In this document: piece by piece, positions 10,073 to 19,435 of the stretch
Numbering within the stretch: the first letter of the stretch is position 1
How the letters are laid out: every line of letters starts with the position of its first letter
NCBI GenBank assembly: GCA_003138355.1
Contig: PLFX01000054.1
Location: 1-64,000, forward strand
Direction: 5' to 3'
DNA length: 64,000 nucleotides
Source of the DNA: Solirubrobacterales bacterium
GTDB lineage: Bacteria; Actinomycetota; Thermoleophilia; Solirubrobacterales; Solirubrobacteraceae
Notes under the pieces: generated by a model
What the model saw: only the letters and a program-made list of their open reading frames with translations
Database searches by the model: none
Told to the model about the DNA's origin: nothing
Made by a program: the position numbers and the translations under genes

Positions 10073-10146
10073 TGCCGGAGGAGGGACTCGAACCCCCGAC
10101 ACGCGGATTATGATTCCGCTGCTCTAACCGACTGAGCTACTCCGGC
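10073..10146 (-). tRNA. tRNA-Met (CAU), elongator type
   Basis: A complete cloverleaf on the minus strand. The acceptor stem GCCGGAG pairs with CTCCGGC and is followed by discriminator A; the D arm is GCTCAGTCGGTTAGAGC. The anticodon stem GCGGA/TCCGC encloses the loop ATCATAA with anticodon CAT, and the T arm contains GTTCGAGTC. CCA is not encoded. It lacks the run of three G-C pairs in the anticodon stem expected of the initiator, so I call it elongator Met; an Ile2 (lysidine) tRNA is the main alternative. Its 3' end faces the phage-like element. Confidence 0.92.
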
Positions 10147-15490: not shown

Positions 15491-17182
15491 CTACGCGCCC
15501 GCGAGCTCCGCGGCCTTGACGATCAAGAGGGCAGCGGACAGGACGAGGTAGGTCCACATCGAGCCGAGTGCGATGCTGCGCGCGCGCGTCGCGCGCGGGC
15601 GTTCGAGCAGCGCGAGCGGTGGCATCGTCCACTGCGACTTGGGGATCTGCGGCTCGGTGTCAATCACTGTCACGCCCGCCGCGACACGTCGCGCGCGTGC
15701 CAGCGTCGCGCCGAAACCGAGCAGGCCGACGGCCAACACGCCCGCGCCGATCAGCGCGAAGCGGGTCACGTTGATCGTCGGAAAGACGGTCGTCGCCATC
15801 AGGATCAGAGACAGCAGAACGAGCACCGAGATGATCACGCAGGCGATCGCGTTGAGCCAGGTCGCGTTGCGCCAGGGACCGAGGACGTCGCGATCGTTGC
15901 AGAGCAGCAGCAGGAACACCGTCGCGCTCGGCAAGAGCACGCCGGCGAGCGCCTGGACCGCGGTCGTGATGATGCCTAGCGGTGCATGGGGGATCAAGAC
16001 GATCCCGGCCGCGCCGCTGATCAGCAGCCCGAAGATCAAGTAGAACCCGGGAGCTTCGCGCATGCTGCGGTGAAGCGAGCCACGCGTGCCCGTCAGGTCG
16101 CCGAAGGCATAGCTGGTGGCGAGTGTCAGAGCCGCGGCACCGATCAGCGACGCGTTCAGGAGGACGATCGCGAAGAACGCGCCCGCGGGCGAGCCGAGCG
16201 TGTGGGTGAGGCCAGCGGCCGTTGCGCCGGCGTTCTGGAAATGGCCGAAGTAGCCGGTGCCGCGGAAAGCGAACGCGCAGATCGCGATCAACGCGGCGGC
16301 GCCGACCACGACGATGAACGCGCCGAGCGTCGTGTCGAGGCGCTCGTAGTTGATCCAGCGCGGCGTGATTCGCTTGTCGATCACGTTCGACTGCTGGAAG
16401 AAGAGCTGCCAGGGGGCGACGGTCGTGCCGACGATCGCGATGATCAGCAGCACCGAGGTCGAGCTGATGCCGCCGCGGATACCGGGAACGACGAAGTCCT
16501 GCGCGATCTGGCCCGCTTGCGGATGGGCGAGGAAGAACAGCGGGACGACGAGGAAGTTCGCGAAGACGAACACGAACATCGCCCGCTCCCATGTCCTGAA
16601 GCTGCCACTGGCCGTGATAGCTACAAGCAGGACGGCGGCGATCGGGACCGAGATGTACTTGGAGACGCCGAAGAACGAGAGCGCGAAGTTGACGCCGATG
16701 AACTCTGTAACGATCGTGAGGAAGTTGAGGACGAAGAGGTCGATCACCGAGAACCAGGCCCAGAAGCGTCCGAAGCGCTCGGCGATCAGGCGCGCGTGCC
16801 CGACGCCGGTGACGGCTCCGAGGCGCACGACCATCTCCTGGTTGACGATCAGGACGGGAATCAGCAGCAGCAGAACCCACAGCAGGCTCGTTCCGTAGCT
16901 TTGGCCCGCCTGCGCGTAGGTGGAGACGCCGCCGGCATCGTTGTCGCCGACCATGACGATCAGGCCAGGGCCGATGATCGCGAGCAGTGCGACGAGACGG
17001 GCGCGGATGCTGCGACGGCCCTCGACGTCGTGCTCGCGGATCGTCCCGAACGCTCCCTGGATGTCGCCTACGTGCGCGCTGTCGAGCACGAAGCGCTCGC
17101 GCGAGGGAGCCGCGGCGGTTGGCGCGCTGGGCGTGGCCGATGCGTTGCGGGCGCGCCTCGGACGCGTCGGCCTCGTCGCCAT
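15491..17182 (-). CDS. Nramp-family divalent metal transporter, divergent (candidate Mg2+ type)
   Basis: A 563-residue Nramp-fold transporter with a 60-residue hydrophilic N-terminus and about 11 membrane helices. The helix-1 metal motif, canonically DPGN, reads D82-A-G-G85; the helix-6 motif, canonically A-T-V-M-P-H-N, reads T-T-V-A-P-W-Q (residues 253-259). The aspartate is kept but the asparagine and the metal-selective methionine are lost. Loss of that methionine is reported for Nramp-related Mg2+ transporters. The ATG follows AGGAGGTGA, the strongest ribosome site in the region. A separate small ORF precedes it on the same strand, and the next gene but one encodes an MgtE-N/CBS protein, both in keeping with Mg2+ transport. 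Confidence 0.88.
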   Translation of the reverse strand: MATRPTRPRRARNASATPSAPTAAAPSRERFVLDSAHVGDIQGAFGTIREHDVEGRRSIRARLVALLAIIGPGLIVMVGDNDAGGVSTYAQAGQSYGTSLLWVLLLLIPVLIVNQEMVVRLGAVTGVGHARLIAERFGRFWAWFSVIDLFVLNFLTIVTEFIGVNFALSFFGVSKYISVPIAAVLLVAITASGSFRTWERAMFVFVFANFLVVPLFFLAHPQAGQIAQDFVVPGIRGGISSTSVLLIIAIVGTTVAPWQLFFQQSNVIDKRITPRWINYERLDTTLGAFIVVVGAAALIAICAFAFRGTGYFGHFQNAGATAAGLTHTLGSPAGAFFAIVLLNASLIGAAALTLATSYAFGDLTGTRGSLHRSMREAPGFYLIFGLLISGAAGIVLIPHAPLGIITTAVQALAGVLLPSATVFLLLLCNDRDVLGPWRNATWLNAIACVIISVLVLLSLILMATTVFPTINVTRFALIGAGVLAVGLLGFGATLARARRVAAGVTVIDTEPQIPKSQWTMPPLALLERPRATRARSIALGSMWTYLVLSAALLIVKAAELAGA

Positions 17183-17249
17183 CTCGATTCACCTCCTTTC
17201 TGGTCCGCTGCGGCGCGCGCGGCGGCCTTCCGGAGGCCCTGTGCCCGAC

Positions 17250-17348
17250 TCAGCGGCAGGCGAGCAGGGGGACGCCGGGGCAGGCAGCCGTGCGGCCGCT
17301 ACTTCGCGGCGGTTCGCTGTCTTGCAGGGTGCCGGTTTGGTCGTCCAT
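17250..17348 (-). CDS. Leaderless 32-aa upstream ORF, candidate regulatory leader peptide
   Basis: An ATG at 17348 lies 8 nt after a TAAACT hexamer and has no ribosome site, the leaderless pattern seen elsewhere in the window. It opens a 32-codon ORF ending 67 nt before the transporter start. The peptide begins with two aspartates, has Asp-Ser-Glu-Pro-Pro at residues 10-14 and two further Pro-containing spots. Acidic/proline-rich nascent N-termini destabilise ribosomes at low Mg2+ in the MgtL leader of enterobacteria. A GGCCT/AGGCC hairpin lies between it and the transporter's ribosome site. Its regulatory role is inference. Confidence 0.4.
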   Translation of the reverse strand: MDDQTGTLQDSEPPRSSGRTAACPGVPLLACR

Positions 17349-17356
17349 ACGTCGGC

Positions 17357-17362
17357 AGTTTA
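17357..17362 (-). promoter_or_regulatory. Candidate -10 TAAACT before the leader ORF
   Basis: TAAACT on the minus strand, 8 nt before the ATG at 17348. No clear -35 box. Confidence 0.4.
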
Positions 17363-17406: not shown

Positions 17407-17808
17407 TTACTCGCCCACGAGGCCGCGCAGCGGCGACTTGTCGCCGACCGACCAGTTGTGGCCGAACGGGTCGCGAAAGCCGCCCTGCCGGTGCGAACCC
17501 CACGGCATCTCGTGTTCAACGATCGGCGACCCGGCCTGCGCGCCGGCGGCCAGTGCCCGGGCGAGGACTACCTCGGGCTCGTCGACGAACAGCTCGACTC
17601 GCGTGCTCGTCCGGCCGACCTCCGCGGGGCTGCTCTCCGAGTCGTTCGCCGGATTGATTGCGTGGACGAAGAAGGGAGCCCCCGCGATCTGGAGGCCGGC
17701 GACACCGCCAAGGTTCCAGAGCTCGATTGCTCCGAGCGCCTCCGCGTACCACGCGATCGCACGGTCGGCGTCGGGCACGATCAGCAGTACGGAGACCTGC
17801 GCCGGCAC
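17407..17808 (-). CDS. VOC-family (glyoxalase/bleomycin-resistance-like) protein
   Basis: A 133-residue single VOC module pair. The N-terminal SVLLIVPDADRAIAWYAEALGAIELWNLGG and the C-terminal GFRDPFGHNWSV block are family hallmarks; the beta-alpha-beta-beta-beta repeats match glyoxalase I, extradiol dioxygenases and fosfomycin/bleomycin-resistance proteins. Metal ligands are only partly conserved, so the enzymatic role is open. It lies between the MgtE-like gene (15 bp upstream) and the transporter, on the same strand, and is probably co-transcribed with the former. Confidence 0.82.
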   Translation of the reverse strand: MPAQVSVLLIVPDADRAIAWYAEALGAIELWNLGGVAGLQIAGAPFFVHAINPANDSESSPAEVGRTSTRVELFVDEPEVVLARALAAGAQAGSPIVEHEMPWGSHRQGGFRDPFGHNWSVGDKSPLRGLVGE

Positions 17809-17823
17809 GGTCTCGCTGGATCC

Positions 17824-19083
17824 TTACTCGCGCGCGAGGCCGTAGCGGCGGCGCCAGTCCTCGGGCAGCATCAGCTCGAGGATGTCATCGACCGACACGA
17901 TCCCGATCGGTCGCTCGTCGGCGTCCACCACGGGCAGCGAAACGAGGTTGTAGTCGGTCATCAGTCGCGCGACCTCGGGAACTTCTGCTTCAGGGCCGAC
18001 GGAGGGCGGGCTCGAAACAGCGAGCTCGGCAAGCGGCGCCTGCGGGTTCGCTGACAGCACGATGCCCGCGCTGACGAGCCCGACCAGGCCACCTGCCTTG
18101 TCGGTCAGGAGGATCGTGTGCAGCGCCTCAGGCGGAAGGTCACGCTTGCGCGCTGCCTCGCACGCGTCGGCGGCAGTGCCCGTGATTGATACGGTCAAGA
18201 AGTCGGGGCTCATTACGCCGCCCGCCGTCGAGGGGTTGTAGCCGAGGAGCTTGCGGATCTTGCGCTGCTTCGCCGCGGGCAGCTTCTCGAGGACCGGGAT
18301 TCGCCGCTCCTGGGGGAGCTCGAGCAGTAGGTCCGCGGCGTCGTCGCTCGCCATTCGGCTGAGTACCTGCGCGACCTCGCGATCGGACCGCTCGTCGAGG
18401 AACTCGAGCTGGTGCTCGTCGTCGAGTTCCTCGAACACGTCCGCCTCGAGCTCTTTGTCCTGTCCGACGGCGGCGAGGATCTCCTCACCTTCGTCGTGGC
18501 TCGCGGCCTCGACGAGGTCGGCGATCTGTGAAGGGTGCAGGTGGGCGAGGCGTCGCGGGCGCAGCCGCAGTCTGGCTGTGGGGACGTGGCCGACGAAGGG
18601 CTCGATCTCGTCCCACGGCACGAACGACTCGCCGCCATCGCCTTCCCGGCGCAGCGCGCGCGGCAGCCTGCGGCGCAGCCGGGCGGCAAAGCTCGCATCG
18701 ATGCCGGCGACGCGCCAGACACCCTCGACGCACCGCAGCTCCACCTCCCCAGGCGTTACGAGCCGCGCGGTGTTGACGTTGATCACGCTGCGTCCAAGTA
18801 CGTCGCCGCGGAGCAGTACCTCCGTGGGCCGGCGCTCGAACTGCGCGAGGTTCACCTTGGTCGTGGACAGGTGTGCGCGGCCAGGCTCGAGTCGCTCGAT
18901 GTTGCGGATCGGCACGAACAATCTGCGGCCGCCGACCACGGCGCGCAGCCCGACCACGAGCGGGAGCGACTCGCCGTCGTCGAGTCGCGCGATCACGTCA
19001 TCGACACGGCCGAGGCGCTCGCTGGCGCTGTCGAGCAAGGGGCTGCCGACAAGCGCGGAGAGGTGGAGGACGTCGTCCGCCAT
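17824..19083 (-). CDS. PRC-barrel + MgtE-N + CBS protein, soluble, candidate Mg2+ sensor
   Basis: A 419-residue protein from the ATG at 19083 (a TTG five codons earlier lies ahead of the expected transcription start). Residues about 1-75 look like a PRC barrel. Residues about 175-285 are the helical superhelix of MgtE (LHPSQIADLVEA, VFEELDDEHQLEFLDE, ASDDAADLLLELP). GGVMSPDFLTV opens a tandem CBS pair running to about 405. In MgtE these cytosolic domains bind Mg2+ and gate the pore, but here the five-helix channel domain is missing. Its strand and position near a divergent Nramp gene suggest it senses Mg2+ or partners that transporter. Function is inferred. Confidence 0.85.
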   Translation of the reverse strand: MADDVLHLSALVGSPLLDSASERLGRVDDVIARLDDGESLPLVVGLRAVVGGRRLFVPIRNIERLEPGRAHLSTTKVNLAQFERRPTEVLLRGDVLGRSVINVNTARLVTPGEVELRCVEGVWRVAGIDASFAARLRRRLPRALRREGDGGESFVPWDEIEPFVGHVPTARLRLRPRRLAHLHPSQIADLVEAASHDEGEEILAAVGQDKELEADVFEELDDEHQLEFLDERSDREVAQVLSRMASDDAADLLLELPQERRIPVLEKLPAAKQRKIRKLLGYNPSTAGGVMSPDFLTVSITGTAADACEAARKRDLPPEALHTILLTDKAGGLVGLVSAGIVLSANPQAPLAELAVSSPPSVGPEAEVPEVARLMTDYNLVSLPVVDADERPIGIVSVDDILELMLPEDWRRRYGLARE

Positions 19084-19099
19084 CTGGATTGCCGGCAAC

Positions 19100-19192: not shown

Positions 19193-19435
19193 GTGCGCTA
19201 CATAGCAATACTCGTTGCGCTGGTCGCGGTGCTGGCGCTCACGCTGCTAGGCCTTGGAGCCGGCGGCCCGTCGGCCGGCGGCGCGTCCGCGGGCCGTGGC
19301 GCCACGTCGCTATCTGGCGTGGCAGCTCAGGGGCAGGACTCGCAGGCGGGGTACGGATCGGCGATCCAGGCCGCGCAGCACGCCGTGCAGCAAGCGTCAA
19401 GCGACGCGAACAGCGCCGCTACCGCGAACCCCTAG
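19193..19435 (+). CDS. Small exported or membrane-anchored protein (80 aa)
   Basis: This starts with GTG and encodes an N-terminal hydrophobic segment (residues about 3-24, RYIAILVALVAVLALTLLGL) followed by a Gly/Ala/Ser-rich and then Gln/Ala-rich region. It could be an uncleaved signal anchor or a Sec signal peptide with an AGG-type cleavage area. No cysteine for a lipobox. It is divergent from the MgtE-like gene and followed by the PfpI gene. No function recognised. Confidence 0.5.
   Translation: MRYIAILVALVAVLALTLLGLGAGGPSAGGASAGRGATSLSGVAAQGQDSQAGYGSAIQAAQHAVQQASSDANSAATANP

Follow-up and report, generated by a model that had tools for sequence, protein, structure and literature searches.

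Mg2+-dependent destabilisation of the translating ribosome is so far mainly known from enterobacterial leaders. In the MgtL leader of mgtA, ribosomes drop off at an EPDP motif when Mg2+ is low (PMC11282234). In Salmonella mgtC-mgtB, the 8-aa intergenic open reading frame (ORF) mgtQ, with Asp2, Pro4 and Glu5, frees the sequestered ribosome site of mgtB, and the leader ORFs mgtM and mgtP of mgtCBRU, mentioned in the same source, respond to ATP and charged tRNA-Pro via transcription attenuation (PMC8092293). A different sensor, the M-box riboswitch, precedes nrmT (PMC4072509). Here we describe a 32-codon upstream ORF (uORF) that precedes an NRAMP-family transporter gene in a 64,000-nucleotide stretch (the window) from a Solirubrobacterales bacterium of the phylum Actinomycetota (GenBank assembly GCA_003138355.1, contig PLFX01000054.1, positions 1 to 64,000). 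Comparison with related loci indicates a genuine leader peptide that is conserved and regulates in cis. The best available reading, to which we give moderate credence, is that it acts in cis as an MgtL/mgtQ-like, translation-based Mg2+ switch working through ribosome destabilisation; its Mg2+ response, the drop-off and the polarity are what we infer.

Like MgtL, the window leader is a short peptide that carries acidic residues and Pro near its N-terminus and precedes a Mg2+ transporter, and drop-off at low Mg2+, as proposed here, would turn the transporter on. The likeness is a resemblance only, to the EPDP motif, across phyla and between peptides too short for a homology test. Unlike MgtL, whose target mgtA encodes a P-type ATPase and which acts by Rho-dependent termination, our leader precedes an NRAMP-type transporter, carries a conserved rare codon pair (CGA AGT), is also found on CNNM genes, and has an output that looks translational, through an anti-Shine-Dalgarno (anti-SD) segment. 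With mgtQ it shares the layout of a mini-ORF containing Asp, Glu and Pro whose translation would control the release of a masked ribosome site on the Mg2+ transporter gene behind it, but peptide and RNA segments are unrelated, the window leader has its own promoter-like hexamer, and the alternative structures are partly supported. Target family, position and presumed signal are those of the M-box before nrmT and before three orthologs described below, whereas the proposed sensor in the window, which has no M-box, is a nascent peptide. Finally, mgtM and mgtP are also Pro-containing leader ORFs on Mg2+ transport genes, but leaders of the window type have a single or double Pro and a conserved Arg-Ser. 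In a search of the open-access literature we found no report of uORFs preceding NRMT or CorC genes.

The sequence-only reading that had pointed to this locus listed a TAAACT 8 nt before an ATG, a 32-codon ORF and a following hairpin, giving no strand; all are present, on the minus strand (Table 1). The uORF runs from its ATG (17348-17346) to a TGA (17252-17250), and is followed by a local hairpin (GGCCT-CCGGA-AGGCC), by AAAGGAGGTG, and by the transporter ATG at 17182, 67 nt from the uORF stop. The acidic residues that had been singled out, Asp2-Asp3 and the run from Asp10 to Pro14, are there as well (Asp10-Ser11-Glu12-Pro13-Pro14-Arg15-Ser16), but Asp2-Asp3 is not the conserved part: conservation falls on the acidic residue two before Pro (P-2) and on the P-R-S that follows, with codons CGA AGT.

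Conservation of the reading frame in relatives, proposed earlier as a check, is extensive. All 5 close orthologs (66-80% identical) carry the uORF; in an order-wide set of 232 genomes orthologs are present in about 40, and the leader accompanies most of these; overall, about 35 loci from several genera keep the uORF ahead of the orthologous transporter. Frame and core (D-x-[D/E]-x-P-R-S-[S/T]) are shared by 33 non-identical leaders bearing CGAAGT, plus the f5 and f7 variants. Other families of the class have a leader with an altered core, such as MTDTDTPHSTERPRVAG, MDRDQPPSRRRER, MDADRPASTRPARP and ESDDPLSSNSARALQAR, the common pattern being D-x-[D/E]-x-P-x-S-[S/T]. Of the real leaders, 19/20 contain an ORF that has acidic residues and Pro, as against 5.6% of leaders after dinucleotide shuffling. 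Pairwise comparison of 20 non-identical long leaders shows differences in the acidic codon at P-2 in 10% of cases at the first position, 10% at the second and 72% at the third, a pattern that marks protein-level selection as judged from codon comparison. In the same set the core Arg is always encoded by CGA and the core Ser by AGT (20/20 each), compared with 3.3% and 3.0% of the Arg and Ser codons of the transporter genes. The start codon is kept, and the C-terminal half and the length (14-45 codons) vary; in one locus (L036) the core is kept and we found no canonical start codon. We did not find such a leader before more distant NRAMP paralogs (35-45% identity), nor before orthologs that abut the MgtE_N/CBS gene (L050, L053, L057, and many in Mycobacterium, Nocardia and Rhodococcus), where there is no room for one.

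Two other explanations of this conservation can be weighed here. The uORF product could be a small functional protein, for instance a transporter subunit, rather than a cis-regulator, as its N-terminal sequence is conserved and it occurs with two membrane transport genes. This we regard as very improbable: neither the C-terminal half nor the length (14-45 aa) is conserved, there is no membrane segment, the uORF stop overlaps the CNNM start by 4 nt in the second group of leaders described below, and conservation of rare codons is unexpected for a protein product. The conserved nucleotides could instead belong to a structured RNA element (a riboswitch or a protein-binding site) with a secondary reading frame, and both the invariance of CGAAGT in the DNA and a short CCGC/GCGG helix that RNAalifold places around the core fit that idea. 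Yet no helix around the core covaries consistently, third positions vary at the acidic codons, and the start codon is kept across all lengths; in an Rfam scan of the window the single match was a tRNA gene, and the M-box (RF00380) was absent at gathering score. A structured element is, on this balance, improbable. A local hairpin at the P-R-S codons, considered as a conserved element, was rejected when anchored covariation analysis gave no consistent helix.

The connection with Mg2+ comes from the genes that the leader precedes. The transporter matches the Pfam Nramp model with 263.9 bits, and among solved structures its best sequence match is the Eggerthella lenta Mg2+ transporter EleNRMT (7qia, 1e-58), well ahead of Mn2+ transporters. 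At the binding site, NRMT proteins differ from Mn2+ transporters by Asn to Gly in transmembrane helix 1, and by Ala to Thr and Met to Ala in transmembrane helix 6 (PMC8806188). The window protein has these replacements (G85 in NDAGG, T253 and A256 in TTVAPW), and they are invariant in 8 orthologs. By its binding-site residues the transporter is of the NRMT type, and Mg2+ transport is predicted. In addition, the M-box Mg2+ riboswitch (RF00380) occupies the leader position in orthologs of about 60% identity: two in Alicyclobacillus (L158, 145.5 bits; L182, 149.5 bits) and one in an Acidimicrobiaceae bin (L149, 135 bits). In both Alicyclobacillus loci a uORF, MD[AT]GPS(AGT).., with a strong Shine-Dalgarno (SD) sequence comes after the riboswitch terminator; these loci may have two sensors stacked, M-box and uORF.

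The same leader occurs before a second gene family. A search for the core in 12 genomes returned, besides transporter leaders, two ORFs (MNDDEDPPRSS and MNDDEEDPPRSS) whose stops overlap the start of another gene; extra matches of the first pattern (L193, L195, L198) fell within different ORFs or on other strands and were excluded. Across 399 genomes of the class, GANCCNCCNCGAAGTAG gave 46 matches against 9 for the reversed control, and 24 of the 46 are short ORFs that precede CNNM/CorC genes; in nearly all of these the stop overlaps the start of the gene by 4 nt. A second pattern, GANGANNTNCCNCGAAGTA, gave 12 matches in 200 genomes against 4 in the control, 11 of them before CNNM at -4 and 1 before NRMT. 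Starting from the CNNM protein leads to the same leaders at 7/8 of the closest matches, with AGT in 7/7. The window's own genome contains one of them (G000 contig C35, locus L229, leader MNDDPPRSSTPPSGYRAT), so that both leader types are found in one genome. The products of L229, L230, L220 and L241 all match the CNNM transmembrane, CBS and CorC_HlyC Pfam models. Proteins of the CNNM/CorC family have been implicated in Mg2+ efflux (PMC12421838, PMC6711546), and the second target is probably a Mg2+ exporter. Pattern matches found phylum-wide outside the class (n=21) had no CNNM or NRMT gene behind them on inspection, and were therefore taken as chance. In other families, L276-L279 have non-acidic uORFs of 7-8 aa (MNVTTGR, MNGLRSR, MHTTAGR, MTAKGTVD) that overlap or abut the CNNM start.

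The NRMT residues, the riboswitches before orthologs and the shared leader on CNNM/CorC genes thus back the link with Mg2+ that had been suggested from the peptide alone; the accompanying idea, that ribosome drop-off opens the transporter SD, keeps the standing of a proposal. For the leader as a whole, the Mg2+ link is strong by association.

How ribosomes enter the uORF differs among the groups. In long-class NRMT leaders a TANNNT ends 7-9 nt upstream of the start in 9/21 and an SD is present in 1/21; in CNNM leaders TANNNT lies 10-19 nt upstream of the start in 24/24, with an SD in 1/24; short-class NRMT leaders have an SD in 7/11. Leaderless translation of the uORF, as first suggested, is plausible for the window, where leaderless or near-leaderless initiation is likely from the position of the hexamer, but it is not universal.

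Downstream of the uORF, most NRMT leaders have a (G/A)CCTCC segment about 20 nt 3' of the stop (typical form GACCTCC), complementary to the GGAGGTC ribosome site. RNAalifold recovered this anti-SD/SD helix unguided from 20 leaders, with a compensatory change from U-A to C-G on both sides in 2 loci, and in 16/38 loci no more than 5% of shuffled intervals reach the energy of the helix (mean z -1.30). Leaders also show complementarity between the 3' half of the uORF and their own intergenic stretch (mean z -1.18), exceeding all 2000 mispaired permutations, a figure to be read with caution because the sequences are related. In a thermodynamic model of the window, the unpaired fraction of the SD core is 0.47 for the free RNA, 0.11 with a ribosome at AGT, 0.05 at the stop and 0.01 with the uORF covered, which is, within the model, the behaviour expected of a switch. 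These results accordingly support sequestration of the SD by the anti-SD; the switch itself has the standing of a proposal. An equilibrium two-state switch as a property of all loci was rejected, as folding did not reproduce it across them.

The proposed mechanism would work as follows. With adequate Mg2+, ribosomes would finish the uORF and bar its 3' half from pairing, so that the anti-SD closes the transporter SD (OFF). When Mg2+ is low, ribosomes would be destabilised or held early in the uORF by the acidic-Pro nascent chain and by the slow codons CGA and AGT; the 3' half of the uORF, now free, could then pair with the anti-SD region, opening the transporter SD (ON). At CNNM genes, the 4-nt overlap would make translation dependent on ribosomes that complete the uORF and reinitiate at the overlapping start. 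One sensor would thus have opposite outputs, Mg2+ shortage raising the uptake gene and lowering the putative efflux gene; the polarity is apparently opposite for importer and putative exporter, going by their layouts. SD sequestration, the CNNM stop/start overlap and the near-leaderless starts would also suit a uORF that served as translational coupling, or as a standby entry where the ribosome site of the gene is blocked, and sensed no Mg2+. Coupling, however, needs neither the acidic-Pro-Arg-Ser core nor its restriction to Mg2+ genes, and we judge this explanation unlikely.

Several results weigh against the switch as proposed. The equilibrium model shows no consistent switch over 36 loci (mean SD accessibility 0.22 free, 0.17 stalled, 0.21 terminating and 0.21 covered), and the anti-SD is weak or absent in short-class NRMT leaders. 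Some Acidimicrobiia leaders lack acidic residues (ORFs of the KPPST/KPPS type with a CTG start). AGT is retained where the acidic run and Arg vary, in f5, f7, Dormibacterota, Alicyclobacillus and some CNNM leaders of other classes. As the conservation of AGT reaches further than that of the acidic residues, pure acidic destabilisation cannot explain everything; and as AGT is kept without the acidic run or Arg and no local RNA helix accounts for it, a decoding-level component, or a signal other than Mg2+, is possible.

These observations bear on a further alternative, in which the uORF is a true arrest peptide, or a site where ribosomes pause at slow codons (P-R-S, the CGA and AGT being wobble-decoded). 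Its direct signal would be something other than Mg2+, for instance translation factor state, ATP or tRNA charging, and it would stand on Mg2+ genes incidentally. The persistence of AGT just described, the nucleotide invariance of CGA AGT and the Pro immediately before the pair are what such a site would lead one to expect. It would leave aside the protein-level selection on the acidic residues, and the facts that both target families are Mg2+ genes and that orthologs have a Mg2+ riboswitch at the same position; we consider it rather unlikely. The Mg2+ switch could also be put in a broader form, which we offer tentatively and with appreciably less confidence: one family of actinomycetotal nascent-peptide leaders would sense cytosolic Mg2+ with opposite polarity on importer (spaced uORF and anti-SD hairpin) and exporter (4-nt stop/start overlap), the invariant wobble-decoded Ser codon AGT being a codon-level sensor component absent from MgtL. 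If true, an unrelated and widely conserved leader on two Mg2+ gene families in another phylum, following the same logic, would point to the ribosome's need for Mg2+ as a general sensor put to use repeatedly in evolution, and one sensor driving importer and putative exporter in opposite directions would be a testable case. Many unannotated genes would, on this view, be predicted to be regulated by Mg2+, and the motif of the leader can be used to find further leaders.

Related arrangements were seen in other lineages. Four paralogs of about 55% identity (L063, L071, L072, L073) have two acidic uORFs in tandem, the first of the MEDxPRSS type and the second for example MPDSADGPSPRPRAR or MPADDGPSPQPAAR; a GACCTCC/GGAGGTC hairpin follows the second uORF in L063, L071 and L072, and not in L073. 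In Candidatus Dormibacterota and related bins (L118, L122, L129, L134, L142, L157) there are uORFs such as MDGGDSPQSR and MDDGESPQPRPR, then GTGACCTCCTGAGCGG...GGGAGGTCC, which is the anti-SD layout of the NRMT leaders in another phylum. Acidimicrobiia and related leaders (L115, L125, L137, L116, L150) have an apparent CTG start after an SD (SADRGSPHxPxAR, KPPST).

Table 1. Features of the leader locus in the window, and M-box riboswitches at orthologous loci.
Feature	Position	Strand	Basis
-10-like hexamer TAAACT	17357..17362	minus	sequence; 8 nt upstream of uORF ATG; predicted leaderless/near-leaderless start
uORF MDDQTGTLQDSEPPRSSGRTAACPGVPLLACR*, 32 codons + stop	17250..17348	minus	sequence, ortholog conservation, coding constraint
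Conserved core D-S-E-P-P-R(CGA)-S(AGT), proposed ribosome-destabilising/pausing element	17301..17321	minus	ortholog comparison
Anti-SD segment GCCTCC, 13-18 nt 3' of uORF stop	17232..17237	minus	duplex energy at or below 3% of shuffles, window locus
Transporter SD AAAGGAGGT, proposed sequestered by anti-SD	17191..17199	minus	sequence, duplex energy, RNAalifold
NRAMP-family transporter, 563 aa, NRMT-type (Mg2+) binding-site residues	15491..17182	minus	Pfam, PDB match, invariant residues
Glyoxalase/VOC-domain gene, between MgtE_N/CBS gene and leader	17407..17808	minus	Pfam
PRC / MgtE_N / CBS protein, soluble Mg2+-sensing-domain protein	17824..19098	minus	domain match; usual transporter neighbour in orthologs
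M-box riboswitches before transporter orthologs	L158:1613-1777, L182:1620-1785, L149:1532-1700		

In the orthologs inspected, the MgtE_N/CBS gene lies directly upstream of the leader, unlike in the window, where the VOC gene is interposed. Elsewhere in the window, an 80-aa ORF with no Pfam match (19193-19435, plus strand) has a hydrophobic N-terminus and a Gln/Ala/Ser-rich tail, and the tRNA gene, the sole Rfam match, lies at 10073-10146 on the minus strand.
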